The position numbers and the translations under genes were made by a program. This document shows positions 1,115 through 33,403 of a stretch of DNA of 43,390 nucleotides, piece by piece. The stretch spans positions 1 to 43,390 of the forward strand of contig JAGXOC010000002.1 of assembly GCA_019894665.1 (NCBI GenBank), written 5' to 3'. The DNA is from Candidatus Thorarchaeota archaeon. Lineage in GTDB: Archaea > Asgardarchaeota > Thorarchaeia > Thorarchaeales > Thorarchaeaceae. The notes under the pieces were generated by a model. The model saw only the letters and a program-made list of their open reading frames with translations. It ran no database searches and was not told where the DNA came from. Every line of letters begins with the position of its first letter. Position 1 is the stretch's first letter.

Positions 1115-2092
1115 ATGGCAGTCTTAGAAGTCAGAGATTTAGCAACGTACTATTACCTTGGCAAAAAAGAGCTTAAAGCAGTCGATGGTGTGTCCTTTGA
1201 CATAGAGAGTAGGAGGACCTTGGGACTGGCAGGAGAGAGTGGCTGTGGTAAGACAACAACCGCCTATAGTATCATGAGAATCCTCGCAGAGAATGGGAAA
1301 ATTGCTCGAGGTAGTGTCACTCTGGGCGGCGTTGAACTAACTGAACTAAGCGACGAGGAAATGCGACAGATTCGTTGGAAGAAAGCATCTATCGTATTCC
1401 AGTATGCTATGAACGCGTTCAATCCTGTTCTTCGCATAGGTCGGCAAATAGTGGAAGTGATACGTGAGAAGGATAAAATGTCTGAAGAGGAGGCCGTTCT
1501 TACAGTCTCAACGTTGTTTGATGAGGTGGGGTTAAAACCTGAGAGACAGACTGACTACCCGCATGAATTCAGCGGAGGAATGTTACAAAGAGCCATCATT
1601 GCTCAAGCACTAGCTTGTGACCCTCAATTGATAATTGCAGATGAACCAGTCACTGCTTTGGATGTCATTGTACAGAATAAGATCCTAGACCTTCTGAGAA
1701 AACTTCAGGACAAGTATAATCTTGCGGTGTTATTCATCACGCATGATCTCTCGGTTGTTGCTGAGAACTGCCATGATGTTGGCATCATGTATGCCGGAAA
1801 TCTAGTTGAGGTAGGAGATGCAGCCTCAGTATTCAAGAAAAGTCTGCATCCATATTCCTACAAACTCATTGGGGCATTTCCAAGCGTCGTTGGTCCAAAG
1901 AAACGATTGGAGTTCATTCCCGGATCTCCACCAAATCTCTTGAATCTGCCCACAGGTTGTAAGTTTCACCCGCGGTGTCCCTTCGCACAGTCAATCTGTA
2001 AGGATGATATTCCAGAATTCAGGGAAATTACTTCAGGTCACTTTGCAAAATGTCATTTTGCTGGAGAACTCGACTTTGGAGGTGGACAGTGA
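1115..2092 (+). CDS. Peptide ABC transporter ATP-binding protein, OppD/DppD type
   Basis: Cytoplasmic ATPase subunit of the peptide importer encoded by the flanking genes. Visible motifs are Walker [10 protein letters not shown] (residues 40-48), a Q-loop in the VFQYAMNAFNPV form typical of OppD, signature FSGGMLQR, Walker B LIIADEP and H-loop THD. The C-terminus carries the oligopeptide-transporter domain with its conserved cysteines (GCKFHPRCPF, SICKD and KCHF), a four-Cys set that in this family is thought to hold an Fe-S cluster. The length of 325 aa is normal. The start is ATG at 1115, directly after the permease stop, with GGAGGCGAGG at 1101-1110 as ribosome binding site. The stop abuts the ATG of OppF at 2093, so translation is probably coupled. 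Confidence 0.93.
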   Translation: MAVLEVRDLATYYYLGKKELKAVDGVSFDIESRRTLGLAGESGCGKTTTAYSIMRILAENGKIARGSVTLGGVELTELSDEEMRQIRWKKASIVFQYAMNAFNPVLRIGRQIVEVIREKDKMSEEEAVLTVSTLFDEVGLKPERQTDYPHEFSGGMLQRAIIAQALACDPQLIIADEPVTALDVIVQNKILDLLRKLQDKYNLAVLFITHDLSVVAENCHDVGIMYAGNLVEVGDAASVFKKSLHPYSYKLIGAFPSVVGPKKRLEFIPGSPPNLLNLPTGCKFHPRCPFAQSICKDDIPEFREITSGHFAKCHFAGELDFGGGQ

Positions 2093-3079
2093 ATGACAAC
2101 AAACGACACAATTCTTAGCGTTCAAGACCTCAGAAAGTGGTTCACACTTCGGGCAGGATTGTTCTCTTTCAATAGACAACCCAGCTATGTCAAAGCAGTC
2201 GATGGCGTCAGTTTTGATGTTCCAAGAAGCGGGTCTATTGCAATCGCAGGAGAAAGTGGTTGCGGAAAAACAACATTAGCCAGAACAATACTTCGACTAG
2301 TAGAACCTACATCAGGTTCAGTGTTATATAATGGTGAGAACATCTACGAGATGAACCGTCTTGAGCTCAGTGAACTCAGACTCAAGATGCAGCTCATTTT
2401 CCAAAACCCCTTCGAAGTTCTTGATCCTCGACACACCGTAGTAGATCTAGTTGGTGAGGGGCTTGTGATTCATGGACTTCAAGAGAACGATGAAGTATTG
2501 CATGACCGAGTCATTAGCGCGTTGGAGGATGTCAGACTAATTCCTGCAGAAGACTTTGCGACCAGGTATACGCACGAACTATCTGGCGGGCAGCTCCAAC
2601 GTATTGCGATCGCTAGGTCGCTGATTCTTAAACCCGAACTGATAATCGCTGACGAGCCAGTTTCAATGCTTGATGCAAGCATTCGAACAGAAGTCATGAA
2701 CTTGATGACAGACCTTCAAAAAGAGAAAGAATTGACATACATCTTCATAACCCACGATCTTGCTCAGGCTAGATATATCGGCGACTATCTGATTATCATG
2801 TATCTTGGGCGTATAGCTGAAATGGGACCAATGGAAGATGTGATTCAAGCCCCACAACATCCCTACACAAAGGCACTTGTCTCGAACATTCCGATACCTG
2901 ATCCTACAGTAGAACGAGATCGAATCATGCTAGAGGGTGAAACTCCCACACCTGTTGACTTACCACCAGGTTGTAGATTCAAACCGCGATGCCAAGAGAT
3001 AGGAGTTTATTGTAAGGAGGATGAACCTATACTTCATGAAGTAGCCTCTGGTCACTGGGTAGCATGTTACATCGAATAG
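2093..3079 (+). CDS. Peptide ABC transporter ATP-binding protein, OppF/DppF type
   Basis: Second ATPase of the importer, expected to pair with the OppD-type subunit encoded just before it. Walker [10 protein letters not shown] lies at residues 53-61; the Q-loop is IFQNPFEVLDPRH, the signature LSGGQLQR, Walker B LIIADEP and the H-loop THD. The C-terminal peptide-transporter domain is present with its cysteines (GCRFKPRCQE, YCKED, ACYIE end). At 328 aa it is a normal length. The ATG at 2093 abuts the OppD stop, preceded by GGAGGTGG inside the end of OppD. It is the last gene of the operon; a 12-bp inverted repeat follows at 3090-3136. Confidence 0.93.
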   Translation: MTTNDTILSVQDLRKWFTLRAGLFSFNRQPSYVKAVDGVSFDVPRSGSIAIAGESGCGKTTLARTILRLVEPTSGSVLYNGENIYEMNRLELSELRLKMQLIFQNPFEVLDPRHTVVDLVGEGLVIHGLQENDEVLHDRVISALEDVRLIPAEDFATRYTHELSGGQLQRIAIARSLILKPELIIADEPVSMLDASIRTEVMNLMTDLQKEKELTYIFITHDLAQARYIGDYLIIMYLGRIAEMGPMEDVIQAPQHPYTKALVSNIPIPDPTVERDRIMLEGETPTPVDLPPGCRFKPRCQEIGVYCKEDEPILHEVASGHWVACYIE

Positions 3080-16030: not shown

Positions 16031-17158
16031 ATGGTCGCCAGTGATGATGAAGTGACTCTCAAGGTTGAGAACCTCCGAGCTTTCTATACTTCAAAGAAGG
16101 GGCTTGTAAGAGCGGTAAACAATGTGAGCTTTGAGGTAAGAAAGGGTGAGTCAGTTGGACTCTTTGGCGAGTCAGGAGCAGGAAAGACCAGTGTTGCTCT
16201 TTCCATCCTGGGAATGTTCGACCAGCTCTCCCGATATTATGCTTCAACCGCAGCAAATGAAGAGAACAAAAGGTTGTGGTCTCTTAAAGATAAGGCTCGG
16301 AAAAAAGGACTCACATCTGAGGAGATGGGAGAGGACCTTCCAGGTGTTGAAGGACACATCTGGTTCAAAGGAAAAGATATCGTGGCTCTAGATGAAAAAG
16401 AGTACCGAAAACTACGAGGGAATGAGATAACTTACGTTCCACAGGGCACTACTAAATCTCTGAATCCTTATTCAAACATTGAAGAACAAGCATCTGAGGT
16501 GCTCTGGGCACATGATGAGGACAGTGAGCTCGTTGAGTTGCAAGTCATGAAGAGAGTGCTACAGACGCTTGATCTTGTGGAACTTGGTGACGTAGATCTA
16601 CGAAAAGGAATGAAACCTTCACAGTTCAGTGTAGGCGAAGACCAGCGTGTACTCATTGCAATGGCGCTCATCCCAAATCCAGCACTGATGATTGCAGATG
16701 AACCAACCACTGCTGTAGACATAGGACTCCAAAACAGAATACTAGAGGCAATCCAAATCGTTCATGACGAATTGAATCTTTCAATGTTACTCATCAGCAA
16801 CAATCAAGGCACAATTGCTAAAACATGCGATAGAGTTGGAGTGATGACTGCAGGACATATTGTTGAGTTTGGGGAGACGAAGAGGGTTCTCAATTCCCCG
16901 GGACATCCCTTCACTCGGGCATTCATTATGAGCAATCCATCGATGGAACTCATTAGGAAAATCAGGGAAAAGGGTCTTAGGATTCGGGGTATACCTGGCA
17001 AACCCCCAGACCTTGCAAATCCTCTGCCAGGATGCCCCTTCAGTGAACGATGCGAGTATGTCCAAGATATCTGTAGAGAAAAGCTACCTGAATATCGTGA
17101 GATTGAGAAAGATTACTGGGTACTCTGCCATCGATATGAGGAACTGCCAGAGTGGTAG
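16031..17158 (+). CDS. Orphan OppD-like ABC ATPase with degenerate signature and H-loop
   Basis: A 375-residue OppD-type ATPase with the C-terminal peptide-transporter domain (GCPFSERCEY, ICREK, LCHRY). Walker A GESGAGKTS (46-54), Q138 in VPQG and Walker B LMIADE (D223, E224) are intact. The ABC signature, however, reads FSVGEDQR (199-206) instead of FSGGxxQR, and the H-loop reads ISNNQG, so the catalytic switch His is Asn257 and the next Asp is Asn258. A 40-50 residue charged insertion follows Walker A, as in its paralogue at 32318-33403, whose motifs are canonical. No permease or partner gene is adjacent. Family knowledge suggests a weak or non-hydrolytic ATP site. ATG 16031 follows a purine-rich GGGAAAGGT. 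Confidence 0.9.
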   Translation: MVASDDEVTLKVENLRAFYTSKKGLVRAVNNVSFEVRKGESVGLFGESGAGKTSVALSILGMFDQLSRYYASTAANEENKRLWSLKDKARKKGLTSEEMGEDLPGVEGHIWFKGKDIVALDEKEYRKLRGNEITYVPQGTTKSLNPYSNIEEQASEVLWAHDEDSELVELQVMKRVLQTLDLVELGDVDLRKGMKPSQFSVGEDQRVLIAMALIPNPALMIADEPTTAVDIGLQNRILEAIQIVHDELNLSMLLISNNQGTIAKTCDRVGVMTAGHIVEFGETKRVLNSPGHPFTRAFIMSNPSMELIRKIREKGLRIRGIPGKPPDLANPLPGCPFSERCEYVQDICREKLPEYREIEKDYWVLCHRYEELPEW

Positions 17159-17536: not shown

Positions 17537-18583
17537 TCAGAACACGGTATGAATCAATTCATCAGCAGAATGGAATTCCTTGAGGCTACCTTCAAACTGC
17601 TGTAACACAGTTCCGAATTCATACTCAAATTTTTCAGTGAACTCCTGTACTTTGTCCAGAAGAATCTTGTAAGGTTTCTTTGCAATCAAGACGGAGGTGA
17701 ACGCGGCTCCGTGTGCAAATAGAATGTCATAATCACCAATGGACACAATATTGAGTCCCGTTGCACTTCGGGTTATTTCCTGAAAGAGGGATTGTACTCC
17801 TGCAATGCCTGCTGCTGTAAGAACCTGATCGATATCGGGATTCTCAACAAATTGATGATGGCACATAAGAATTCCACCGCTTTGAATCACATACAATTCT
17901 AGAATTTGCTTGTTCCAGTCTAACTCATCCAGTGCAGGTGAGGTAGACAGAACATATCCAAAAATCACTATACCTACTGTAAGTAGCAAAAGACCAAGTG
18001 TATAGATAGATTCTCCCAGAATATAGCCTGTGTCTGAACGCGCAATAAAACCAATCCATCCGATGACAAATCCAATAACAACCCATTGCACACTTATCCT
18101 TACTTCTCCAGATGTGCCCCCCCAGGTGTATCTCAAGAATTGTGCTATTCCTATGAGCGCGAGTATTGCTACGAATAGGGCAAGTGGCTCAAAAAAGGCT
18201 CGGGGTACGATAAGTACCATGAACGTTGAAACAATCCCGATGAGTGTTAAGGAATGACGAGTCCTATATGGTAGAATCATCTCCATTGCAGCAAAGAAAG
18301 AAGAGAGAGCAAATATCACAGCTATGTAACCTGCGGCAACGAATGTGGTATTCATCGGCTCAGTCGTCAGCCAGAAATCGGAGATGATGAAGCAAATTGA
18401 ATTTACTGATAAACCAAAGAAAAATATCGACCAGGCTAATCGGAGATCTAGCTTTTTCTTGTACTTGTCCTTATACCATTGGTTAAAGAAAATTATACTG
18501 AAGAGCATTGAGTAGAACACTATACCGCTGCTTAGAATAAGGAAGATGTCGCGTGCAAATCCTCCAACTTCAAAAAGCGGCAA
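17537..18583 (-). CDS. 7-TM membrane protein with C-terminal longin/roadblock-like domain
   Basis: A 348-residue protein with seven hydrophobic helices (about 12-33, 48-70, 80-101, 111-130, 131-151, 166-181, 190-213) and a soluble C-terminal domain (about 227-348). That domain begins LYVIQSGGILMCHH, continues with a helix (QVLTAAGIAGVQSLFQEIT), a strand pair (NIVSIGDYDILFAHG) and a final long helix ending in FHSADELI. This beta-beta-alpha-beta-beta-alpha order is what archaeal longin/roadblock-like sensor domains look like. It resembles a membrane receptor with a cytosolic GTPase-regulator-like module; function is not known. The start is TTG 18583 with GGAGGT at 18593-18598; no ATG fits. It stands 79 bases beyond the DinB gene. 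Confidence 0.72.
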   Translation of the reverse strand: MPLFEVGGFARDIFLILSSGIVFYSMLFSIIFFNQWYKDKYKKKLDLRLAWSIFFFGLSVNSICFIISDFWLTTEPMNTTFVAAGYIAVIFALSSFFAAMEMILPYRTRHSLTLIGIVSTFMVLIVPRAFFEPLALFVAILALIGIAQFLRYTWGGTSGEVRISVQWVVIGFVIGWIGFIARSDTGYILGESIYTLGLLLLTVGIVIFGYVLSTSPALDELDWNKQILELYVIQSGGILMCHHQFVENPDIDQVLTAAGIAGVQSLFQEITRSATGLNIVSIGDYDILFAHGAAFTSVLIAKKPYKILLDKVQEFTEKFEYEFGTVLQQFEGSLKEFHSADELIHTVF

Positions 18584-18662
18584 TCAGTTAATACCTCCAG
18601 TGGTTTCCAGTTGTTCTTTTGAGATGAGAGTCTATTTTAGTAATGCTAGGATGAAAGACTGG

Positions 18663-19187
18663 TTAACTTTCATCGATTAGGGCTCTTATTATCCCCAGAG
18701 TTGAGTCAACTGCTTTCCCCCAAAGGTTGTCAGGATCAGGAGGAAGCTCTGACGCACCAATCATCCGACGTATTTTTGCAATCTGACCTGTATGGTAAAT
18801 GCCATGCTGCGATGTTCTCAATACAGCCCATGCAATTGAAGGACCCCCATCCTTTGGAGGAATTATGCGGAGCTGTTCCTCAGGACATTCTTTGAGAATC
18901 ATGGTTATTTTCTCAGTGTTCTCATGAATGCGAGATATGACCTCCTCAAATGTGTCAGCAATCACTGGAGGACCTATCGAGTTGCCAGCCTTATGGAACC
19001 AGTAGGTTTCTGCAGTTCCAATATGCATGACGATTCCAGCAATAGACCTCGAGTATTCTTCACTGGTTACAGTTTTGATCAATTCGTCATTGGTCAAACC
19101 CTTCAACACATAGTGAAGATGAGTCCTCTGATTCTCATGTGCTTGAATCACCATCTCTCTGAACCAACTTGGTACCAAGCCAATCAC
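18663..19187 (-). CDS. DinB-like metal-binding four-helix bundle protein
   Basis: A 174-residue DinB/YfiT-superfamily protein. Three histidines at the expected places form the metal site: MHIGTAETYW in the second helix region and QHGIYHTGQI near residue 130, followed by the typical KIRRMIG. Members are thiol-transferases or related enzymes using small thiols, but most are uncharacterised. The ATG at 19187 overlaps the DUF362 stop by four bases (ATGA), with GGAG just upstream inside that gene, so the two are translationally coupled. This coupling to a ferredoxin-like DUF362 protein is the main hint to its role. Confidence 0.85.
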   Translation of the reverse strand: MIGLVPSWFREMVIQAHENQRTHLHYVLKGLTNDELIKTVTSEEYSRSIAGIVMHIGTAETYWFHKAGNSIGPPVIADTFEEVISRIHENTEKITMILKECPEEQLRIIPPKDGGPSIAWAVLRTSQHGIYHTGQIAKIRRMIGASELPPDPDNLWGKAVDSTLGIIRALIDES

Positions 19188-20374
19188 GCTCCAGGTTTTT
19201 TGGGTGGATCCTTTGTGAGTGTCACAAGTTCGTACTCTCTATTTCCTAATCCCATCTTCTTCGCATGCGAAAGTTGAATCTCAGCAAGCTCAAGAATCTC
19301 ACCACTCTCAGGATCTTTGCACCCATGAGCCATAGCGAATTTGCAAGCACCACACTCTATTTCACCCACTGAGGAATCAGGGTTTGGCGGAGCATCTTTG
19401 ATTGCCTGTATTGTAGCCTCATCTATGGCAAGAGGGTCTCTAGAACCGAATATCCCGATGTCATGCAAGAGAAGTGGAGCCCCATAGTTCCAACAATCAC
19501 ACTTGTCTGATATGTCGATTGCGATATTGATGAAGTAAAACTTGTCCACTCCAATTGAGTTGACTACACCCGCTGCGTTCTCAACAAAGATCGGTCCTTG
19601 CGTGTGGCTTGGTCGCCAAGTCTGCTTTACCGCTTTGGCTTCGACTCGAGAGCATACATCTACACAATGATGACAAGCTATACAATTCGAGAGGTCAACC
19701 TCAGCCTTCTCTTTCATCGTTATGCATCTAGTAGGACAGGTCTTCAAGCATTTTGAACACTCCGGACCCAAACACTTCTCAGGGTCTATCTTTATGTCAC
19801 CCAGGAAATGCATTGCGGCCTTACCTCTCTTTCCCACGAGTCCAATACCAAGATTCTTGATTGAACCACCAATGCCGCCAAGACCATGTCCCTTTGCATG
19901 CGTCAGGACGATTACCTTGTCACAATCAAGTAGAGGTGTCACGACATCTGCACTCTTAATGAAGTCACCATCAACTGGGACATCAAAGACATCGGTTCCC
20001 CAATATCCATCAGCTATGACAAGGGGAGCACCTACTGTTGCTGCAGTATAACCATGAAGCGTTGCCATGCCCAAGTACTCGGTCACGGTGGTTCTGCCAC
20101 CGTATGTTCCTCCACCTCCATACCCAAGCCCAGTAGTTTCTGTGACAAATGGTTCACCACCTACGGCTCGGATAAGGTCAACAATCTTCCTCGCATATGC
20201 CGGACGCAGATAGTTAGTGTTACCCCACTGACCAAAGTGGGTCTTTACCATAATCTTCTCGCCGGGCTTAATCGCCTTATCAAGACCAAGCTCATTGAAA
20301 ATGTGTTCTAATTTGTCAATCATGTTGTAGTCAGTTCGTGTCTGCCTATCAGTGAAGTAGACCTTTGATGTCAT
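19184..20374 (-). CDS. DUF362 protein with 2[4Fe-4S] ferredoxin domain (copy 1)
   Basis: A 396-residue cytosolic iron-sulfur protein of the DUF362 family. The N-terminal domain has KTHFGQWGNTNYLRP and LTHAKGHGLGGIGG; residues about 200-250 carry two cluster motifs (CLGPECSKCLKTCP and CIACHHCVDVC), and the C-terminal part resumes DUF362 with FYFINIAIDISDKCDC. A further GACKFAMAHGC near the C-terminus is absent from the neighbouring paralogue. The biochemical role is unknown; the family is thought to be redox-linked. ATG 20374 has GAGGA about 11 bases upstream. It is separated by 68 bases from copy 2 and overlaps DinB by four bases. Confidence 0.88.
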   Translation of the reverse strand: MTSKVYFTDRQTRTDYNMIDKLEHIFNELGLDKAIKPGEKIMVKTHFGQWGNTNYLRPAYARKIVDLIRAVGGEPFVTETTGLGYGGGGTYGGRTTVTEYLGMATLHGYTAATVGAPLVIADGYWGTDVFDVPVDGDFIKSADVVTPLLDCDKVIVLTHAKGHGLGGIGGSIKNLGIGLVGKRGKAAMHFLGDIKIDPEKCLGPECSKCLKTCPTRCITMKEKAEVDLSNCIACHHCVDVCSRVEAKAVKQTWRPSHTQGPIFVENAAGVVNSIGVDKFYFINIAIDISDKCDCWNYGAPLLLHDIGIFGSRDPLAIDEATIQAIKDAPPNPDSSVGEIECGACKFAMAHGCKDPESGEILELAEIQLSHAKKMGLGNREYELVTLTKDPPKKPGA

Positions 20375-20442: not shown

Positions 20443-21576
20443 TTATCCCTCTGGCTTTTCACGAGAGAGTTTGACAAGATCATAATCTGTTGTTCCTAAT
20501 CCAATCTTGCGACCGTGTTCGAAAATTGCCTCTGACCGTTCTGCAAGACTCTCGAATTGAGACTGGTCCACGCTGGATTCAGCATTCAAGGCGACACCCT
20601 TCATTGCATGCATAGTCGCATGGTCGATTGCCAATAAATCGGAAGATCCTAAAATTCCAATATCATGCATCACCAACGGAGCACCAACACAGATGCAGTC
20701 GCAGTGGTCGGATATGTCAATGGCCAAATTGATGTAGTAGAACCTGTCAGGTCCAATGGATTTTATAACTCCTAACGCGTTCTCAACTACACGAAGTGCC
20801 ATATCTTGGCCAGACCAAGACATGAAGATTGCTTTCGCACCAACCTTGTTGGAACAGATTGATGCACAATGGCCACAAGTCACACAGCGGTCCCAATCAA
20901 TCTTGACGGTGTCTGAAACTTCGATACACCTAACTGGACAGACAGAAACGCACTCTGAACATTCTGCACCCTTACACTTCTCTTGAGAAACCTGAAGACC
21001 ATCAGGACAGTGAACCGCAGCCTTTCCTCGTTTTCCCACCATTCCCACACCCATGTTCTTGATTGAGGCTGCAATGCCCATATGATGAAACTTTGCGTGT
21101 GTTAGAAGGATGATCTTGTCACAGTCTAAAGAAGCGGCTGCAACAGGTACTGATTGAATATGTTCACCATCAATGTCTACATTGAAGGTATCAATACCCC
21201 AATAACCATCAGCAATCACAATGGGGGCTCCTAGAACGCCTTGCGTGAAACCGTTCAGGGCTGCACGCTCAAGATATTCAGGTGCTGTAGTTCGACCGCC
21301 ATATGGACGTCCACCACCGTATGCAAAAGAAGCCGTATCAGATACAAATGGAAAACCACCTGCAGCTCGAACCAGATCCACTAGTTTGCGAACATAAGCA
21401 GGTCGAATGTAATTCGTATTCCCATATAGACCAAAGTGAGTCTTAATCATCACCTTCTCGCCATCTTTGATTGAATCTCGTAATCCCAGTTCATTGAAGA
21501 CGTGCTCAAGCTTGTCGAGCATGTTATAATCTGGCCGAGTTTGGCGATCTGTAAAGAATACCTGTAGATTCGTCAT
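20443..21576 (-). CDS. DUF362 protein with 2[4Fe-4S] ferredoxin domain (copy 2)
   Basis: A 377-residue paralogue of the downstream DUF362 protein; the two align from the first residue (MTNLQVFFTDRQTR against MTSKVYFTDRQTR). It has KTHFGLYGNTNYIRP, LTHAKFHHMG, and two cluster motifs (CKGAECSECVSVCP and CVTCGHCASIC). I chose ATG 21576 because homology to copy 1 begins exactly there and GGTG stands before it; a longer frame to 21741 would overlap the divergent gene at 21688 with sequence absent from the paralogue. First gene of a likely DUF362-DUF362-DinB transcription unit. Function unknown. Confidence 0.88.
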   Translation of the reverse strand: MTNLQVFFTDRQTRPDYNMLDKLEHVFNELGLRDSIKDGEKVMIKTHFGLYGNTNYIRPAYVRKLVDLVRAAGGFPFVSDTASFAYGGGRPYGGRTTAPEYLERAALNGFTQGVLGAPIVIADGYWGIDTFNVDIDGEHIQSVPVAAASLDCDKIILLTHAKFHHMGIAASIKNMGVGMVGKRGKAAVHCPDGLQVSQEKCKGAECSECVSVCPVRCIEVSDTVKIDWDRCVTCGHCASICSNKVGAKAIFMSWSGQDMALRVVENALGVIKSIGPDRFYYINLAIDISDHCDCICVGAPLVMHDIGILGSSDLLAIDHATMHAMKGVALNAESSVDQSQFESLAERSEAIFEHGRKIGLGTTDYDLVKLSREKPEG

Positions 21577-21687
21577 GATGACACCATGCATGTACTCAAC
21601 AAAGCACAACTTATGAGTTGTCGTCGAGATCTGGCAAATATCTTCGATACCGAAAAGGCTATTCCCAATCCTAGAGAGCACTGAGCT

Positions 21688-22542
21688 ATGCCAGCCAGGT
21701 ATGAATTCAGCCAGGAAGCCATTCAGAATTTCAGCAATCAATATGGGATTGCAATCAATTTAACATCTGAACAAAAAGAGAAACTAGCTGACATTGGAAA
21801 GACTTCTCTCTTGGTTGAGCAAATATCAAGTATTGCTGATCAATTATGTCCGGATGATGTTAGTCTGAAGGACTTCATTGAACAGGGATTGGCAGATTTA
21901 CATCCTGTAGCATTGACACTCTACGTTCTGAATGATGACTTGTGGAAGATTATGTCTCGCAAACATGAACATCCTGAGAAGATGCTCCCAATGACAACCA
22001 TTCCTTGGTTCTGCTGGGAAGAAAAGGCAGAAGGTAGAAAGAATCCTACTGGAGTCAAAAGTATCGATGATCCAAATCGACCATTCACTACTAAGATAGA
22101 AGATGGTGTCTTGAAAATTAGTGGTAAAGGTGGCGATTTTGCAGGACTACTGGAAGGTCGCATTGTAAATCCGTACAAAGGAATCCGGCCATTGTTCATT
22201 CCTGGATCTACTGGTCCGAAGAAGGCTGTGGCAAATTATGAATCTCAATTGATTCAGATTGCAATCAATATTGCCCCATCAAAAATGAAGCTCTATCCAG
22301 CTCCCGTGAAAGAATTGGATTATGTGTTTTCAGAGAAGCCCCGAGTATTCTATGATCACGGCATCCAAATCAATGTGGATGGTGAGGAAGTAAATCTGAA
22401 AGTTGGCAAAAGGAGAGAAATCACCCTTCGTGGCAAGGTGATGATCTTCATTGGGAAGGATTTTGAGGAAACACCTGACTCTGACAAGATTCTGATGTTT
22501 CATGCTTGGCTTGCGGTACTGAATAGAACTCCGTTCCTTTAA
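21688..22542 (+). CDS. Unrecognised soluble protein
   Basis: A 284-residue protein with no signal peptide and no membrane helix. The first 100 residues look helical with acidic character; residues about 110-200 contain WFCWEEKAEGRKNP and a glycine-rich DGVLKISGKGGDF stretch; the C-terminal 100 residues alternate short strands (QLIQIAINIAP, GIQINVDGEEVNLKVG). I recognise no family. ATG 21688 has a weak purine stretch before it. It is divergent from the DUF362 pair (111 bases apart) and precedes a membrane protein gene on the same strand. Coding is supported by an uninterrupted frame with normal codon use. Confidence 0.7.
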   Translation: MPARYEFSQEAIQNFSNQYGIAINLTSEQKEKLADIGKTSLLVEQISSIADQLCPDDVSLKDFIEQGLADLHPVALTLYVLNDDLWKIMSRKHEHPEKMLPMTTIPWFCWEEKAEGRKNPTGVKSIDDPNRPFTTKIEDGVLKISGKGGDFAGLLEGRIVNPYKGIRPLFIPGSTGPKKAVANYESQLIQIAINIAPSKMKLYPAPVKELDYVFSEKPRVFYDHGIQINVDGEEVNLKVGKRREITLRGKVMIFIGKDFEETPDSDKILMFHAWLAVLNRTPFL

Positions 22543-24029: not shown

Positions 24030-25058
24030 TTATGCTATTGAGTCACCGAATGAATCGGCATATTCCTGTTGAGCACTTGCTCCAAAGTCAAGTTCTCCTG
24101 CAAAGTGACAGGCAACGAGGTGACCACCACCGACATCTCGCAGTGGAGGTTCTTCCATCTTGCAGACATTCTGCGCAAAGATGCATCGAGGATAAAACCT
24201 ACATCCTGGAGGTGGATTAATTGGACTAGGAACTTCACCTGCCAAGATTACTGCTCTTCCGGAGAACTCTGGATCGGGGATAGGTACTGCAGACACAAGT
24301 GCAAAGGTATAGGGATGCAACGATTTCCTGAAAATGTCGTAGGGGGTTTTTTCAACTATCTTGCCCAGATACATGACAGCAAGACTATCACTCATGTGCT
24401 TGACAACAGACAGGTTATGTGAAATGAACATGTAAGTTAAATCGAACTCCTCCTGAAGGTCCTTCATGAGGTTTAATGTTTGAGCCTGTACCGACACATC
24501 AGTGCTTGATGTAGGTTCGTCCATGACAACAAACTTAGGATTGAGTGCCAGTGCTCGTGCAATGCAGATACGTTGCCTCTGGCCGCCAGAAAACTCATGC
24601 GGAAATCTGTTGAGATGAGCTTCTGTAAGACCGACCTTTTCAAGAAGGCTCAGGACCATATCTCTCATCTTTCGACCCTTTGCAACTCCGTTCACAACCA
24701 ATGGTTCTCCAATGGAGTTCTTGATTGTGACTCGGGGGTCAAGTGATGCCATTGGGTCTTGGAACACAATCTGCATGTTGAATCGGACTTTCCTAAGAGC
24801 TCGTCCTTTGAGCTCTGTGATATCTTCTTCATCAAAATAGATCTTACCACTTGTAGGTTCCATAAGCCGAAGGATAGTACGTCCAAGTGTCGTCTTTCCA
24901 CACCCGCTCTCCCCTACAACGCCAAGTGTTTCGCCTTTCTTGATTTCGAGATTCACACCGTCAACAGCATGTACTTTTCCGATGACCTTCCGAAATACAC
25001 CTCCGGTTAGTGGAAAGTGTTTCTTGAGATCTTCAGTACGAATTAATAATTCACTCAT
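24030..25058 (-). CDS. Peptide ABC transporter ATP-binding protein, OppF/DppF type
   Basis: ATPase subunit of the complete transporter encoded at 24030-31154. Walker [10 protein letters not shown] is at residues 49-57; Q-loop [12 protein letters not shown], signature FSGGQRQR, Walker B FVVMDEP and H-loop SHN (His kept, next residue Asn rather than Asp). The C-terminal domain has [15 protein letters not shown] and ACHFAGEL. Its length of 342 aa is normal. ATG 25058 is preceded by a strong GGAGGA, and the OppD stop at 25072 is 13 bases upstream. Last of the four minus-strand genes. Confidence 0.94.
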
Positions 25059-25071
25059 TCATTTTTCCTCC

Positions 25072-26223
25072 TCAGCTTCGCAAGGGATGGTGACAAGCCA
25101 CCCAGTGACCTGGTTCAAGCTCTTCGAGAAGTGGCTTCTTCTCTTTGCATACGGAAGTTGCATAATCACACCGGGGATGAAAACGACATCCCGTTGGAGG
25201 TGTGATTAGATTTGGTACAGTTCCTCTGATCTGAGGTAGTCGATCTTTCACTTCATGGAGTTTCGGCACAGCGATCAAGAGACCAGCGGTGTAGGGATGA
25301 AGTGGTTTTGCGAAGATTTCTTCAGTGGCACACGACTCAACAGTTGTTCCAGCGTACATGACATTGACCCAATTGCAGGTTTCTGCAACTACGCCCATGT
25401 CATGCGTGATGACGATGATTGAGGTTCCAATTTCTGCCTTCAGCTGGTTCAATAGCAGAAGCACCTGTGCTTGCACAGTGACATCCAGGGCAGTTGTCGC
25501 TTCGTCACAGATCAAGATACTTGGATTACAAGCAAGTGACATAGCAATCAATGCCCTTTGTCGCATTCCGCCTGAAAGCTCATGTGGATACTGATTCACG
25601 ACCTGTTCAGGTGCAGGCATTCGGACCAACCTAAGCATCTCAATAGCTTTTAGCTTAGCGGCTTCTCGCATTGATTTCTTATCTGGTTCAGGTGGATCAT
25701 CTAGCTGTTGTCTATAGTAGGAAATCTTGCCTTCGATTTCAGCACGATTCTCATCAGACGTTGCTTCAGATAGCGTAAGCTCGAGCTTTGCTATCTTCAT
25801 GTACAGGACATCCATTGCGAGGTTCTGGTGAAGTTCAATTACTTCAGCAATCTGGTCGCCAATTCGAAATACAGGATTGGGATATGTCGCAGGGTCTTGG
25901 AACACAATTGAAATTCGGTTCCCTCGGATCTCAAGCATCTCTTCGAGTTCGAGCTTTGCAAGGTCTAGTTCGATTGTTTCCTTTGTTTCAAAGTCTTGAT
26001 CGAAGAACAGAATCTGCCCGTCATCAAGTCTTCCAGGAGCTTCAATAAGACGAAGAATAGACTTGGCTGTGACTGACTTGCCACAACCTGTCTCTCCGAC
26101 AACACCCATTGTGTCTCCACGACGAAGGAACATCTCGACACCATCGAGTGCCTTTACGATACCTTCGTAGGTGTAGAAGTTCACATACAGATCCTTCACA
26201 TGTAGGACTAATTCATCGGACAT
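25072..26223 (-). CDS. Peptide ABC transporter ATP-binding protein, OppD/DppD type, with coiled-coil insertion
   Basis: ATPase partner of the OppF protein encoded downstream. Walker A GETGCGKS (43-50), Q-loop [12 protein letters not shown], signature LSGGMRQR, Walker B ILICDEA and H-loop THD are intact; [15 protein letters not shown] and ACHHP form the C-terminal peptide-transporter domain. An unusual charged, heptad-like segment of about 60 residues (from about [19 protein letters not shown] to [11 protein letters not shown]) lies between Q-loop and signature, where ordinary OppD has a short helical subdomain. ATG 26223 with AAGGAGATGA upstream is preferred to a longer frame that runs into the permease gene. 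383 aa. Confidence 0.93.
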
Positions 26224-26230
26224 AGTTGTG

Positions 26231-27940
26231 TCATCTCCTTCTAAGCTTGGGATCCAAGATGTCCCTAATCCCATCTCCAACAAGATTGAATGATAGAGCT
26301 GTGACAAGTATTGCGAGTCCGGGATAGAGTGTCATCCAGGGTGCGCTGAGAATGTAGTTCTGACCTCTGGCAATCATCATTCCCCACTCTGCAGTACCAA
26401 CTGGCGGACCAAATCCGATGAAGGCTAGACCAGCAGCTACCAATAGCACGGAGCCAATATCCATCGTAGCTTGAACAATCACTGGTTGAATCGTATTCGG
26501 AAGTATATGACTGAACAGGATTCTTGAGTCGCTTGCGCCAGAAGAACGTGCAGCCTCAATGTAGAGCTTCTCACGTTCTGAGAGAACTTGGCCTCTTACA
26601 AGACGAGCATACGTAGGCCACCAAGTAATCATAAGCGCAATACTAATTGTCTCTAGACTGCGCACACCTATAGCCATTACAATGGCCATGGCTAGTACAA
26701 GACCTGGAAATGCGAAGAAGATGTCAGTGATCCGCATCACGAGCTCATCCAGTTTCCCGCCATAATACCCAGAAGCCGCACCAATGATTGCACCGAAAGA
26801 TAGTGCAACCATAACTACACTGAGTGCAATTTTCAGGTCCTCCTGTGCACCCCAAATGATTCGACTGTAGATATCACCACCATAACTGTCAGTACCCCAG
26901 ATATGAACAGGGAAGATACTGAAGTAAGAGATGACAACTCTAGTATTGACAGACCATGCGTTTGTCTTTTGAGATGCGGTGAATTGAAGCTCCCAAACAT
27001 AGCCACCTGTTTCATCTGGAAGTTCAATATATTGCAATAGACTCTCATCGACAACAGACGCATTCGCATAGAGATAGGATTGTCGTTGGGATACTGTCAT
27101 ATCTTCGTAATCTGTCACATTGAGACTATAGATTCGAAAAGTGATATTCACTGATACGACATCCACACCAGTCTCTAGTTCAGAAACCCCAATGAATAAT
27201 TTCGGAATCTCAACAGTTTCTAGATATTTTTGTGTTATTGTCAATTGTTGATAGTAGTAATCTGGCATTATGTCAGGATTTAATGTAGTATCTTCAAAGA
27301 GATACTCATAGTTTTGTTTAATGTCATTGCTTGATGAACCAGGTGGAAGTCTGACATCATCAAAGACCATGGTTGTTCCTGCGTATGTAGTAGTCCAAGG
27401 TGCTGTGATAGCAACCATAACCATGAATGAAATGAGTAGGATACCAACCACAACCAACGGACTCTTCCGTATGAGGTGTAGCGTGAACCGAGTTTCTTTG
27501 ATGCGGGGTTTCGTGTCTTCAACAAACTCTTCAAACCAGTAGTATCTCACACCAGGTATGAATATCAAGAGTAACTGAAAGACGATGAGAATCATAAAGA
27601 TGAGACCTATCGTTCCCAAAGTTGCGTAAACAACAGTCAAAAATACGTACAAGTAGAATGACGTTCCGAAAGCATCAGACACGCGCTCCATGACACCCTG
27701 ATTCGCTCTTATCAGGAAGAAAGACAAGACGAGAATTATGAGACTCTGTAATATCCATTCACTGACGAAAGCTGGGACTTCTAGTGATACCCCCATCCAT
27801 CCTTGGATTGTATAGGCCATGTTTCCAAGAACTATTATTCCACCGAATAACAGACTGGCCATAACAAATATGATCTGTATCAGACTGAGGAGTTTTGCTA
27901 TTGTTTCATTTCCATTATTATTCTGAACATCTGTTTCCAT
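26231..27940 (-). CDS. Peptide ABC transporter permease, DppC type, with extra N-terminal helices and large external loop
   Basis: A 569-residue DppC-like permease, nearly twice the usual length. Residues about 15-130 contain four hydrophobic helices not found in standard DppC; the canonical first helix is at about 158-178. Between it and the conserved HIWGTDSYGGDIYSR (346-360) lies about 165 residues of hydrophilic, strand-rich sequence, where most family members have 20-40; several NxT/S sites are consistent with an exterior location. The remaining part is a normal BPD_transp_1 domain with EAA loop EAARSSGASDSRILF. ATG 27940 with GGAGGATG nine bases upstream is preferred to an ATG at 27949 that abuts the motif. 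Operon with DppB, OppD and OppF. Confidence 0.92.
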   Translation of the reverse strand: METDVQNNNGNETIAKLLSLIQIIFVMASLLFGGIIVLGNMAYTIQGWMGVSLEVPAFVSEWILQSLIILVLSFFLIRANQGVMERVSDAFGTSFYLYVFLTVVYATLGTIGLIFMILIVFQLLLIFIPGVRYYWFEEFVEDTKPRIKETRFTLHLIRKSPLVVVGILLISFMVMVAITAPWTTTYAGTTMVFDDVRLPPGSSSNDIKQNYEYLFEDTTLNPDIMPDYYYQQLTITQKYLETVEIPKLFIGVSELETGVDVVSVNITFRIYSLNVTDYEDMTVSQRQSYLYANASVVDESLLQYIELPDETGGYVWELQFTASQKTNAWSVNTRVVISYFSIFPVHIWGTDSYGGDIYSRIIWGAQEDLKIALSVVMVALSFGAIIGAASGYYGGKLDELVMRITDIFFAFPGLVLAMAIVMAIGVRSLETISIALMITWWPTYARLVRGQVLSEREKLYIEAARSSGASDSRILFSHILPNTIQPVIVQATMDIGSVLLVAAGLAFIGFGPPVGTAEWGMMIARGQNYILSAPWMTLYPGLAILVTALSFNLVGDGIRDILDPKLRRR

Positions 27941-27956
27941 AGCTAGCATCCTCCAA

Positions 27957-28994
27957 TCAACCAAATCTAATCCTCGGATCCAAAACACCGTATATCATAT
28001 CAACTATGAAATTCGCTATGACGAAAATAAATGCAACAAGCAGAGTGAACCCGTTAATGGCGGCTATATCTGAGTTGAGAATTGAATTAGTCGCCCACCG
28101 TCCAAGCCCAGGCCAATTGAATATAGTTTCTGTCAAAACAGCTCCGGTTATCAGTCCACCGAATGCCAGACCAATAACAGTCACGGTGGGGATGAGTGCA
28201 TTCCTCAGAGCATGCTTGTATATCACGACTCTCTCACTGAGCCCCTTAGACTTTGCAAGCGTGATGTAATCCTCTTTTATAACCTCTAGCATACTTGAGC
28301 GCATCATTCTTGTGATGATTGCAAGAGTGATGTATCCGAGACAGAAAGCAGGCATAATAAGATGGACAACAGCATCCAAAAACAAGGCTGGATTATGTTC
28401 AAACAAAAGCGAATCTATGAGCAGAAATCCTGTTGTGGGTTGCCAAGATCCGAATGCACGAAAATTGTAACGATCTCCACCGGGTAAATGTGGCAGGTCC
28501 CAAACGGATAACTGATAGAATAATACATACTTGAGCATCAGTCCAAACCAGAAAATTGGCATCGACACACCAATAAGCGCAAAGACACGTGTGACGTGAT
28601 CTGCAGCTTTGTCCTTTCGTGTTGCAGAGATAATACCTAGTGGGATACCAAGAACGATAGCGATGGACATAGCAACGATGGAAAGTTCAATAGTTGCTGG
28701 AAACAATCTGGCAAGAACGGTAAGAACAGGTTGATCCGCTCCCGTAGTTGTACTAACGCCCCAATCTCCCTGGAATAAGGCAGTCAAATACAGGAAGTAC
28801 TGTACGACTAGGGGTGCGTCCAGTCCTCGTGCTCGGATAATACCGGGTATTGCTGCGTCCGGGGTTCTCTCTGTGACGTACATAGCTAAGGGATCACCGA
28901 CTACGTACGAGAGGAACCATGTTATTGTTAAAACACCAAAAATAACAGGAATTGCCAAGATTATCCTTCGTAGTACAAAGTCTCTGAGTTTCAT
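27957..28994 (-). CDS. Peptide ABC transporter permease, DppB/OppB type
   Basis: A 345-residue permease with six helices and the DppB hallmarks: N-terminal MKLRDFVLRRIILAIPVIFG, the VGDP motif after the first helix, the EAA loop region around DYITLAKSKGLSERVVIYKHALRN, and the terminal VDMIYGVLDPRIRFG. It forms the membrane channel with the DppC protein encoded next. ATG 28994 has GAGGGT upstream. First gene of the minus-strand part of the transporter; its promoter lies in the 282-base divergent region shared with the solute-binding protein gene. Confidence 0.95.
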   Translation of the reverse strand: MKLRDFVLRRIILAIPVIFGVLTITWFLSYVVGDPLAMYVTERTPDAAIPGIIRARGLDAPLVVQYFLYLTALFQGDWGVSTTTGADQPVLTVLARLFPATIELSIVAMSIAIVLGIPLGIISATRKDKAADHVTRVFALIGVSMPIFWFGLMLKYVLFYQLSVWDLPHLPGGDRYNFRAFGSWQPTTGFLLIDSLLFEHNPALFLDAVVHLIMPAFCLGYITLAIITRMMRSSMLEVIKEDYITLAKSKGLSERVVIYKHALRNALIPTVTVIGLAFGGLITGAVLTETIFNWPGLGRWATNSILNSDIAAINGFTLLVAFIFVIANFIVDMIYGVLDPRIRFG

Positions 28995-29117
28995 GAGTGA
29001 ACCCTCGATGATGCTTGTTTACATTTATAGGAATCCAATCTCGTAAACTATTGCTGCCGACCGTGTGTAATACTTAAGGTTTTGGTTGCCATCAACGGTG
29101 ATTTGAAGCATTTTCAA

Positions 29118-29149
29118 ACACCTAGCCTACCCGTAAGTATATTAGGTGT
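29118..29149. promoter_or_regulatory. Inverted repeat around a TATA-like box in the transporter divergent promoter
   Basis: ACACCTA at 29118-29124 is the exact complement of TAGGTGT at 29143-29149, and TAAGTATATT, a TATA-like stretch, lies between them at about 29134-29143. The arms flank the likely promoter of the binding-protein gene at 29277, so a dimeric regulator could block it. The rest of 28995-29276 contains no gene I can support; a second TATA-like TAATACTTAAG lies near 29067-29080. Confidence 0.35.
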
Positions 29150-29276
29150 AAATCCTCTGCGAGGTCTAATAGCGTAGTTAGGTTGGTTAATTGTTTAGTT
29201 ACATTACTACTTGCCTAGCTTGTTGTTACGGTCCATTCAATGGATCGTTCATAGCGCAACTTTTAGAAAACACGAG

Positions 29277-31154
29277 ATGGATAACATGGAGAGAAATCAA
29301 TTAATTGCTGTTATCGTAATCGTTGTGATTATAGGTTCTGCTGGAGCATATATATTGTTACAGCCTCCTGCAGTACAACTTGCTGAGGATCAGACAATCA
29401 TTTTTGAAACGATTGCTCTTCCTGAGTATGTCGACCCACACAAGGACTACGAATCAGCTGGTTCCCACGTAAGTCTCAACGTCTATGAGACGTTGTTTAC
29501 GTACCCCTGGGATTCCGCAGACACAACACCATCTGTTCCATTACTTGCGGAAAGCGTACTAATATCATCAGATGGAATGACCTACACATTCACACTCCGT
29601 CAAGGAATCACATTCCATGATGGAACAGCCTTCAATGCCTCAGCCGTACAGATGAACTTCTGGAGAATGCTAGGACGTGGATGGGATGATGGCTTTGGTC
29701 CACAGTGGATAGTTGCTGAACCAATCCTTGGTGGCCAGGCCATTGAGGATGCAGTATACGAGTATGGAGACAGAAGTCCCCAACACATCGGTAATTGGAC
29801 AGAATGGCAGGCAAACTCTGGCGCAATTGAAGTCGTGAGTGAGTTCGTTGTGGATGTGCATCTTGCATATCCCTTTGCACCATTCATTCCTGGAATAACC
29901 TATGCATGCGCTGCAATGATCAGCCCAACCTACTTCATGGCTCACGGTGGAATGTCGCCTGAGAGTGATGATTTTTGGATGGATAGTCATACATGCGGGA
30001 CTGGTCCATACATCTTTGAGGAATGGATTGATAATGATAGGCTCACGGTAGTTCTCAATGAAAACTATTGGAGAGAAGCAGATGCAAAGACCACTCATCC
30101 CTTTGCAGGCTCCATCACTCAGGTCACATGGAAGAAGAACATAGATATCAACAGCAGGATGTTAAACCTCCAGGCTGGAGAAACTGACTACTGTGATTGG
30201 CAGGCAACCAATGCCTATGACATCTACAACAACGTTACCGACCGTGGTGACGGTACATTACAGAGCATCAACCCTGAGGTCAAGGTCTGGACAGGTCTAC
30301 CAAACTACAACGTCATGTTCTTAGGATTCAACATGAACGAGTACCTGAACTACACAGGCGAGATCGTTGAGAACCCATTCCAAGACTGGGAGTTAAGAAC
30401 AGCGATGTCCTACGCATTCGACTATGATGCCCTCATTGACAATGTCATGAACGGAATTGCTACACCGTTAGCAGGCTGTATTCCAAAAGGTCTGATGGGA
30501 TACAATGATGCTTTGCTCCCGTACGTACAGGACTTGGATGAGGCAGTAATACACTGGAACCTAGCCATGGACAATGGTCTGGATGATATCCTAGCAAACA
30601 ACTCCTTCCAGGTGAACATCTACTACAACGAGGGTAATGACGCCCGTGAGGCCTCAAGTCTGCTGCTCAAGCAGGCCCTTGAGGAGATCATTGCTGATCC
30701 GGCTTCCGAAGATCCCTCCACGACACTTACCATCGATGTATATGGTCTTGAATGGGCAAGCTATCTATACCAGGTCAGGAACAGACAACTACCGGTCTTC
30801 TTCCTCGGTTGGATGCCTGACTATGCACACCCAGATAACTACGCAGGACCCTTTGTAAAGAGCACTGGTACCTACCCGTACAGGATGGGTCTAGAAGGCT
30901 CAACCGGTGAAGGCGGTGTTGTTTGGGATCATGAAAAGGTCAATGGTTGGATTGCTGCTGGATCTCAGGAAACTGATGTTGCTGCAGCGGAAGCAATCTA
31001 TGCGGATATCCTACAGGAGATCTTTGACCACAATGCGTTCATCTGGGGCTACCAAGCAATTGAATTCCACGTCGAAGGTGCCTGGATGGAAGGATATGTG
31101 TTCAACCCAATGAAAGATGAGTACTTCTACCACTACTACAAGGTTGTAATTTAG
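29277..31154 (+). CDS. Peptide ABC transporter solute-binding protein (SBP family 5), membrane anchored
   Basis: Extracellular substrate-binding protein of the family 5 (DppA/OppA) type, serving the divergently encoded permeases and ATPases. An N-terminal helix (IAVIVIVVIIGSAGAYILL) anchors it; no lipobox Cys follows, as is usual for archaeal anchored binding proteins. The mature domain has family segments LAESVLISSDGMTYTFTLR, GITFHDGTAFNASAV and CGTGPYIFEEW, and ends with VFNPMKDEYFY. Acidic and tryptophan-rich composition is normal for the group. About 625 aa from ATG 29277; ATG 29286 is equally possible, and a TTG start at 29211 would add a segment before the anchor. Followed by a terminator at 31196-31219. 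Confidence 0.94.
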   Translation: MDNMERNQLIAVIVIVVIIGSAGAYILLQPPAVQLAEDQTIIFETIALPEYVDPHKDYESAGSHVSLNVYETLFTYPWDSADTTPSVPLLAESVLISSDGMTYTFTLRQGITFHDGTAFNASAVQMNFWRMLGRGWDDGFGPQWIVAEPILGGQAIEDAVYEYGDRSPQHIGNWTEWQANSGAIEVVSEFVVDVHLAYPFAPFIPGITYACAAMISPTYFMAHGGMSPESDDFWMDSHTCGTGPYIFEEWIDNDRLTVVLNENYWREADAKTTHPFAGSITQVTWKKNIDINSRMLNLQAGETDYCDWQATNAYDIYNNVTDRGDGTLQSINPEVKVWTGLPNYNVMFLGFNMNEYLNYTGEIVENPFQDWELRTAMSYAFDYDALIDNVMNGIATPLAGCIPKGLMGYNDALLPYVQDLDEAVIHWNLAMDNGLDDILANNSFQVNIYYNEGNDAREASSLLLKQALEEIIADPASEDPSTTLTIDVYGLEWASYLYQVRNRQLPVFFLGWMPDYAHPDNYAGPFVKSTGTYPYRMGLEGSTGEGGVVWDHEKVNGWIAAGSQETDVAAAEAIYADILQEIFDHNAFIWGYQAIEFHVEGAWMEGYVFNPMKDEYFYHYYKVVI

Positions 31155-31195
31155 TAGTGGACAAGAAGTAACTTATCAGCAATAGAACAAAATGT

Positions 31196-31234
31196 AGACC
31201 GGGGTTACCACCTCGGTCTCTCTTCTTATTTTTC
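31196..31234 (+). terminator. Hairpin terminator after the solute-binding protein
   Basis: AGACCGGGG at 31196-31204 pairs with CCTCGGTCT at 31211-31219 (nine pairs, one G-U) around a six-base loop, followed by a pyrimidine-rich CTCTTCTTATTTTTC tail. It lies 42 bases after the stop codon. Confidence 0.65.
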
Positions 31235-31331
31235 GGGCATGTTTTCAAGAGATTGAATGAGTTCATCTCATGGCCGAGTTGGAAACCCTTATAGCAAGAA
31301 TTTCGTGCACAATTTGCAGGTGCTCGAAAAC

Positions 31332-32237
31332 ATGCAAACCCCCAAGAAAACACAACGATTCGCAACAATGACCTCTCACCAAATGTTTACATTATGGTGG
31401 GAAGAGCGATGGGTTAGGAATCTTGTATTCTTACTAACACCTGTGGGAATCATCGATGCAACCTTTACAGTACTCCTTTTCAATGAGTTGGGTCATGGCT
31501 TCGAGTTTAACCCAATTGTACAGATAGCCCTTCAAAGTGAATGGTGGTTTGTGTGGTTCTTCATTGATGCAGTTTCCTTCTTCCTATTTGTTATGATGGC
31601 TGGATCATACTATTTGCATACTCGGAGAAGTCTGGTCAATAATCGGACTGGTCTTGTTTCAGGACTTGTAGCAATTAGAGTAGGTTTGGCTGCTCACAAT
31701 GTAATCAGATTCCAAGGAGCTTTCTCAGCAGTTTTCGGTGGTTTCATGTTTGGAGCGATTACTTTCATAATCATGGATAGTCTGCTTGATCGTACGAGTG
31801 ATGTGACTTGGCACGGGTTTAAACAGTGGTGGAAACATAAGACAGACAGATTCCATGATTACAGGCTTACTAAGAAAGTGCGCAAGTCAAAACGAGGAGA
31901 TGTAACACAGGTGGACGAAGAGAGTGAGAAAGAGATTCGTGCAGATCTGCCGAAAACAGCAGAATCAGATGTATCAAGTAGCGGTGGACTCTGGCGAAAA
32001 AGAGCGGCCTATCTAATGGGAGCAGTTGCTCTCTTCCTATTCATGCCCTACTTCCTTGTCTTCCTTGGAGATTTAACTGGAGTTTCTGCATTTACCGATA
32101 TCTATGGATCTTTGGTGTTTTGGAACGAACTATCCGCACCTGCATTCCTGATAGGATTCGTTACAATCTGCATATTCACTGCTAGCATCATGTATCTCAT
32201 TCTCCGATCATTTGAAGTTCAAGATGGCGCTTGGTAA
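31332..32237 (+). CDS. Membrane protein, DUF5658-like N-terminal half
   Basis: About 301 residues: three to four helices in the N-terminal half, a charged cytosolic linker (about 60 residues rich in K, E and D), then two C-terminal helices. The D..FTVLLF...G.GFEFNPIVQ segment followed by the WFVWFFIDAV helix resembles DUF5658-type membrane proteins; confidence in that match is modest. I prefer ATG 31332 because AGGTG stands nine bases before it and CCTTATAG at about 31287 is a fitting TATA box; an ATG at 31257 in the same frame would lie 22 bases after the upstream terminator. It ends before the ABC ATPase whose start at 32318 is 80 bases further. Confidence 0.65.
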   Translation: MQTPKKTQRFATMTSHQMFTLWWEERWVRNLVFLLTPVGIIDATFTVLLFNELGHGFEFNPIVQIALQSEWWFVWFFIDAVSFFLFVMMAGSYYLHTRRSLVNNRTGLVSGLVAIRVGLAAHNVIRFQGAFSAVFGGFMFGAITFIIMDSLLDRTSDVTWHGFKQWWKHKTDRFHDYRLTKKVRKSKRGDVTQVDEESEKEIRADLPKTAESDVSSSGGLWRKRAAYLMGAVALFLFMPYFLVFLGDLTGVSAFTDIYGSLVFWNELSAPAFLIGFVTICIFTASIMYLILRSFEVQDGAW

Positions 32238-32317
32238 GATTTCGACATTCTGCCAAGCATCATGCGTCTTCAACACGCTTTATTAGTGAAAAATCGCAAG
32301 CCCGCCTTGGTGTCAGT

Positions 32318-33403
32318 ATGGCCAAAGGTGATCCACTACTCATTTTGAAAAACCTGAAGGCTTACTATCCTTCCAAGAAAGGATTGGTCCGAGCAGTTGA
32401 TGATGTCTCTCTGGAAGTTCGAGAGGGAGAGTGTGTCGGAATTCTTGGAGAGAGTGGGTCTGGGAAGAGTAGCATGGCACTCGCAATAATGGGACTCTTT
32501 GAGAGAGTTGCAAGATTTTCTGCTGGAGCATCAAATGATCCTGAACTACGGAGAGCGTTTGAGAAAGGACTTCCGGGCTCTAAAGATATGCCAGGCGTGG
32601 GGGGAAGTGTCATCTTCAGAGGAAAAGACATGAGCACTCTATCGCAGGAAGAACTCGTTGCGATTCGAGGTCGTGAACTCTCACTCATTCCTCAAGGTCT
32701 TGGTCATGCTCTTAATCCTCAACACAGTATTGGGCACCAGACTGCTGAACCTCTTGTGGTGCACGAGGAGAATATCAGACTTCTTACACTGAAGAGGAAG
32801 GTTCTCGAATACCTGGGTCTTGTACAACTGGCTGATGCTAATCTTCGTTTTGTCATGGATCCTGGAAGTTTCAGTGGTGGCGAATCTCAACGTATACTCA
32901 TTGCCATGGCGCTTATCGCAGGACCGTATATGGTGATAGCAGATGAACCCACATCAGCTCTCGATGTAACAGTTCAAGCACAGATCATGAATGTCCTCAG
33001 GATGGTCCGTGATGAATTTGATGTCTCGCTCTTGCTCATCAGTCACGACGCAGGTGTTGTTGCCGAGATGGCAGACAGAGTTGCAATCATGTACGCAGGA
33101 AAGATAGTTGAATTTGCAAGTGCTGTGGCTGCCTTTCACGAACCCCAGCATCCGTATACGATGGGGCTAATGTCAAGTTTTCCAACCATTGCAATGATGC
33201 AGATGCGAGCAGGCAAGAAACCTAGACTAAGGGGAATTCCTGGAGACCCTCCTGATCTTTGTAACATACCAAAAGGATGTGCGTTTCATCCACGCTGCCA
33301 ATACACGATTGACATCTGCAAGGAAGAAATACCAGAATACAGAGAAGTCAAACCAGACCATTTCATACGATGTCATCGATATGGGGATATAGTGCAAGAA
33401 TAA
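32318..33403 (+). CDS. Orphan OppD-type peptide ABC ATPase
   Basis: A 361-residue OppD-like ATPase with complete motifs: Walker A GESGSGKSS (44-52), Q-loop IPQGLGHALNPQH, signature FSGGESQR, Walker B MVIADEP and H-loop ISHD. The C-terminal peptide-transporter domain has GCAFHPRCQY, ICKEE and RCHRYGD. It shares with the ATPase at 16031-17158 the opening PSKKGLVRAV-like segment, a charged insertion after Walker A and the PQG Q-loop, so the two are paralogues of one subfamily; only this copy is canonical. No permease or OppF gene is next to it. ATG 32318 with GGTG upstream is preferred to a longer frame from 32231 that overlaps the preceding gene. Confidence 0.92.
   Translation: MAKGDPLLILKNLKAYYPSKKGLVRAVDDVSLEVREGECVGILGESGSGKSSMALAIMGLFERVARFSAGASNDPELRRAFEKGLPGSKDMPGVGGSVIFRGKDMSTLSQEELVAIRGRELSLIPQGLGHALNPQHSIGHQTAEPLVVHEENIRLLTLKRKVLEYLGLVQLADANLRFVMDPGSFSGGESQRILIAMALIAGPYMVIADEPTSALDVTVQAQIMNVLRMVRDEFDVSLLLISHDAGVVAEMADRVAIMYAGKIVEFASAVAAFHEPQHPYTMGLMSSFPTIAMMQMRAGKKPRLRGIPGDPPDLCNIPKGCAFHPRCQYTIDICKEEIPEYREVKPDHFIRCHRYGDIVQE

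Follow-up and report, generated by a model that had tools for sequence, protein, structure and literature searches.

The longin fold helps to control small GTPases in eukaryotic cells, and eukaryotic longins also act as SNARE regulators and as coat subunits without a GEF role. Thorarchaeota belong to the Asgard archaea, kin of the ancestor of eukaryotes. Asgard longins, roadblocks and longin-GTPase fusions have already been published, with longin homologues listed for Loki and Odin and the fusions known in MK-D1 (PMC10933270). Asgard genomes are rich in small GTPases; operons do not reveal their partners, and in MK-D1 the GTPase genes do not, as a rule, share an operon with a longin or roadblock gene (PMC10933270).

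Here we describe a protein, 7-TM-longin, encoded in the window (the whole stretch of 43,390 nucleotides that was analysed), in which a longin domain follows seven predicted membrane helices. The closest described systems are the Asgard longin-GTPase fusions of MK-D1 (PMC10933270), tied to Arf/Rag-like GTPases; a homologous longin occurs in such fusions in the same phylum and in the same genome, but in 7-TM-longin it is placed C-terminal to seven helices and not in cis with a GTPase. By profile, the closest relatives among solved structures and Pfam families are the longins of MON1/CCZ1, FUZ/INTU, HPS1/HPS4 and TRAPP Bet5/TRAPPC1, which differ from 7-TM-longin in being eukaryotic soluble subunits of multi-longin complexes, devoid of membrane helices. 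The SNARE longins (VAMP7, Sec22b) are longin-bearing membrane proteins as well, and VAMP7 was the best Foldseek match; their longin, however, is N-terminal and is followed by the SNARE helix and one C-terminal anchor, whereas 7-TM-longin has no SNARE helix. The gene and its parts are as follows.

17537..18583, minus strand: 7-TM-longin gene, 348 amino acids, TTG start (open reading frame; homologues; dN/dS 0.04-0.08).
18593..18598, minus strand: GGAGGT ribosome-binding site, 9 nt 5' of the TTG (sequence).
17942..18562, minus strand: seven predicted membrane helices, residues 8-214, N-out/C-in (AlphaFold2, hydropathy, charge).
17906..17941, minus strand: cytosolic linker, residues 215-226, SPALDELDWNKQ, conserved (alignment A1).
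17540..17905, minus strand: longin domain, residues 227-348, beta-beta-alpha-beta-beta-beta-alpha-alpha (model, Foldseek, profiles).

The minus-strand frame stays open over 17537-18583, and the plus strand over the same span is riddled with stops. The first-pass annotation had proposed a TTG start backed by GGAGGT, and comparison bears this out: at the aligned start position TTG is used in 5/5 closest species, four relatives among them, and GGAGG stands ahead of it in four of the five (3/4 close relatives). The host is a Thorarchaeon, the nearest named relative being Candidatus Thorarchaeota archaeon AB_25 (87% identity), in which the gene order around the locus matches that of the window; the placement of the genome with Thorarchaeota agrees with the Asgard host assumed earlier. 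In 45 of 59 Asgard genomes either the whole protein or its C-domain had a homologue, and six full-length homologues, own included, occur in the genus (72-100% identity). In comparisons of the window with three close relatives, dN/dS was 0.044-0.075 where dS was measurable, and the membrane part had more amino-acid changes than the C-terminal domain. Because of this breadth of homologues and these ratios the frame is not a chance one, and purifying selection on the gene, as judged from sequence comparison, is strong.

Two co-directional genes lie upstream.

18663..19187, minus strand: DinB-family protein, 79 nt from 7-TM-longin (possible operon).
19184..20374, minus strand: DUF362 / 4Fe-4S protein, 4-nt overlap with the DinB gene (context).

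The order of DUF362 and DinB next to 7-TM-longin was kept in 5/5 relatives checked at that locus. In one genome (G002, locus L068, G002:C44) the syntenic 7-TM-longin is 50% identical to that of the window, while the neighbouring DUF362, DinB, acyltransferase and ABC ATPase genes are 70-85% identical; thus 7-TM-longin either diverges faster or was replaced there. The window also carries an adjacent DUF362/4Fe-4S pair on the same strand (19184-20374 and 20443-21741) and numerous oligopeptide-type ABC transporter genes (68-3079, 16031-17158 and 24030-33403). No relatives of the window protein were found in the viral contigs scanned.

The seven helices claimed by the first-pass annotation were recovered in the AlphaFold2 model with moderate pLDDT (8-42, 47-71, 77-103, 106-125, 128-156, 160-181 and 191-214), and family-averaged hydropathy of this part has seven maxima rather than fewer. 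The full-length and isolated-domain models were each built from five close sequences, with low mean pLDDT (56 and 53, respectively). Lysine and arginine are concentrated on three predicted inside loops (4.7, 1.7 and 3.4 per sequence, versus 0.2, 0.7 and 0.8 outside), hence a predicted N-out/C-in topology. GPCRs and microbial rhodopsins share seven helices in this orientation with 7-TM-longin but have no sequence match to it. A microbial rhodopsin was rejected since lysine in helix 7 was present in 0/21 homologues, and membership of the rhodopsin, Myomaker or GPCR families was not accepted because Foldseek matches of the full model had E above 1e-3 and reflected general shape only. A HisKA_7TM sensor was likewise rejected, Pfam PF16927 having no match in this genome. 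Searches of the whole protein against PDB and Pfam/NCBIfam gave no real match, the protein has no sequence match to known receptors, and no catalytic motif was recognised in its 7-TM part. Polar residues R11, D12, N61, D69, E101 and Y194 of the membrane part are invariant or well conserved; R11 and D12, both invariant and predicted to lie close to the outer face, are no more than a lead toward ligand binding. In the linker E220 and W223 are invariant, and D219 and D222 are present at 90% (alignment A1).

The C-terminal domain had been annotated as a cytosolic, "longin/roadblock-like" domain. The cytosolic placement agrees with loop charge and with the model, and of the two folds the longin half of the description held, on strand-helix order, Foldseek and profiles. 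The isolated-domain model, of low pLDDT, has the order beta2-alpha-beta3-alpha-alpha without an N-terminal helix; alignment A5, a profile built from 47 Asgard homologues of the domain, agrees. Against solved structures, the first 50 Foldseek matches all belonged to the longin/roadblock superfamily; they include VAMP7 (2.5e-4), Sec22b (TM 0.65), AP-1 sigma 3 and CopZ1, as well as MglB, Ragulator and one Asgard roadblock. The A5 profile matched best TRAPP Bet5 (2e-4) and MON1 (6e-3) among PDB sequences, and its members matched the Pfam families Fuz_longin_1 (9/47), Longin (4), Intu_longin_1 (3), Clat_adaptor_s (3) and Sybindin (2). Two longin-GTPase fusions that carry a homologous domain, L081 and L082, scored above the curated Pfam cut-off for Fuz_longin_1. 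The window sequence of the domain itself had no direct match in Pfam or PDB, so that the assignment runs via relatives. Matches of the domain profile to MukB and to a de novo protein were dismissed as noise. Fold prediction and profile search of residues 227-348, the check suggested earlier, thus returned longin and no clear match to an unrelated fold. A roadblock of the MglB type shares the superfamily fold, regulates small GTPases and is represented among the Foldseek matches, but its topology has an N-terminal helix, whereas the model has no helix before the first strand and has an extra C-terminal one. The profile match is poor (hhalign of only 12% to a clean Asgard roadblock set), no Robl_LC7 profile match was obtained for the domain, and none of the domain-search matches overlaps a Robl_LC7 match while about a dozen overlap Fuz_longin_1 (by inspection), which makes the roadblock reading scarcely credible. 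Residues of about 227-348 are a divergent longin, not a roadblock.

The annotation had further connected the protein with small GTPases, and this connection was upheld through domain fusions and not through gene neighbourhood at the Thorarchaeal loci. The longin of 7-TM-longin is homologous to that of the L081/L082-type fusions (hhalign 99.2%, 3.6e-19), and homologous longins are fused to Arf-like GTPases at L081, L082, L084, L111 and L089 (two genes). This genome itself contains two such fusions, one on contig C55 (L043/L139/L174, a single gene) and one on contig C395 (L170, G000:C395:6000-9500), the latter of 283 aa with longin at 5-101 and GTPase at 120-256; L170 is a candidate partner of 7-TM-longin. 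Genome context, which had also been proposed as a check, gave a divided answer: the Thorarchaeal 7-TM-longin loci examined have no GTPase gene up to about 4.5 kb away, while in G037, of another Asgard family, a GTPase is near two 7-TM loci (about 3 kb at L083, 469 bp at L090). GTPase-bearing frames of 285 aa were also observed in most genomes of the genus, and L089:4521-7136 encodes a longin-GTPase-nitrilase-like (CN_hydrolase) fusion of 871 aa. Arf-profile matches in this genome number 21.

Our survey also revealed the longin as a recurrent end-piece of membrane proteins. Out of 82 longin frames in 20 Asgard genomes, 29 have membrane helices, with the longin C-terminal to them; by a simple hydropathy threshold, which makes the classes approximate, the 82 comprise 12 of the 7-TM class, four with at least nine helices, 13 in which a large N-terminal part is combined with one or two helices, six that are GTPase-bearing and 47 that are soluble. 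In further genomes, MFS-like proteins ending in longin (L061 and L062) matched MFS_1 with E values of 1.6e-7 and 3.4e-8, just below the curated cut-off, and TPR proteins with longin were found (L056, L063). The suggestion that longins replace missing two-component systems in the genus was not supported, since response regulators were present in 13/13 of its genomes searched; they are absent from the six other Asgards outside G037.

Taken as a whole, the best explanation, to which we give a probability of about 0.5, is that 7-TM-longin is a receptor or membrane platform acting via its longin on small GTPases. The seven helices would carry a sensor or anchoring role in the cytoplasmic membrane, the acid/Trp linker would couple helix 7 to the cytosolic longin, and the longin would dock and regulate a Ras/Arf-like GTPase. 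It might do so by direct contact with the GTPase, or by pairing with the longin of a longin-GTPase fusion such as that of G000:C395; the longins of MON1-CCZ1 and TRAPP pair in eukaryotes. We infer sensing, GTPase binding, linker coupling and which way control would run, and the putative GTPase link is based on cis fusions of homologous domains seen in sequence.

The helices might instead merely anchor a longin that dimerises with longin or roadblock proteins into a TRAPP/Ragulator-like platform, an unlikely reading that nevertheless carries some weight. Longin and roadblock domains do build dimeric platforms (PMC10933270), and this genome offers 12 Robl_LC7 (roadblock) matches and several soluble longins; the conserved R11, D12, N61, D69, E101 and Y194, however, exceed the needs of a bare anchor. 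Some of the soluble longins in this genome have C-terminal winged-helix-like parts (L037/L103, L040, L042). The flow of control could also be reversed, the longin being an effector handle by which a GTPase or longin-GTPase switches, clusters or localises a 7-TM transporter, enzyme or channel. Such a role would suit the same longin at the ends of MFS-like transporters and of proteins with nine or more helices, as well as the homologues of the 7-TM module, themselves without longin, that are joined to or beside a CPBP-like intramembrane-protease-type protein, recognised by its EEVLFRG / EESLFRG motif (L044-L047). The lack of a recognised catalytic motif in the 7-TM part, and the many longin partners with a single helix and large N-terminal parts, receptor-like in appearance, speak against it, and we regard it as rather improbable. 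That the longin fold was retained for a function unrelated to GTPases fits the missing direct database match of the window sequence and the lack of an adjoining GTPase gene but is highly improbable, since several genomes have a GTPase joined in cis to close homologues of the domain.

In the open-access literature we found no report that places a longin at the cytosolic end of membrane proteins, whether 7-TM, otherwise multi-helix or receptor-like, and as coverage was open-access only, this is weak evidence of novelty. The present analysis adds several longins in Thorarchaeota, beyond the listing for Loki and Odin (PMC10933270). That one domain is found fused to GTPases and also as the cytosolic end-piece of diverse membrane proteins suggests where signals might enter, and it brings the control of the Asgard GTPases within reach of tests with purified proteins. 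It is possible, rather than probable, that 7-TM, MFS-like, 9-or-more-TM and single-TM proteins form an Asgard class of membrane receptors whose C-terminal longin would be a common output on longin-GTPase switches, which might constitute a GPCR-like receptor-to-small-GTPase pathway predating eukaryotes.
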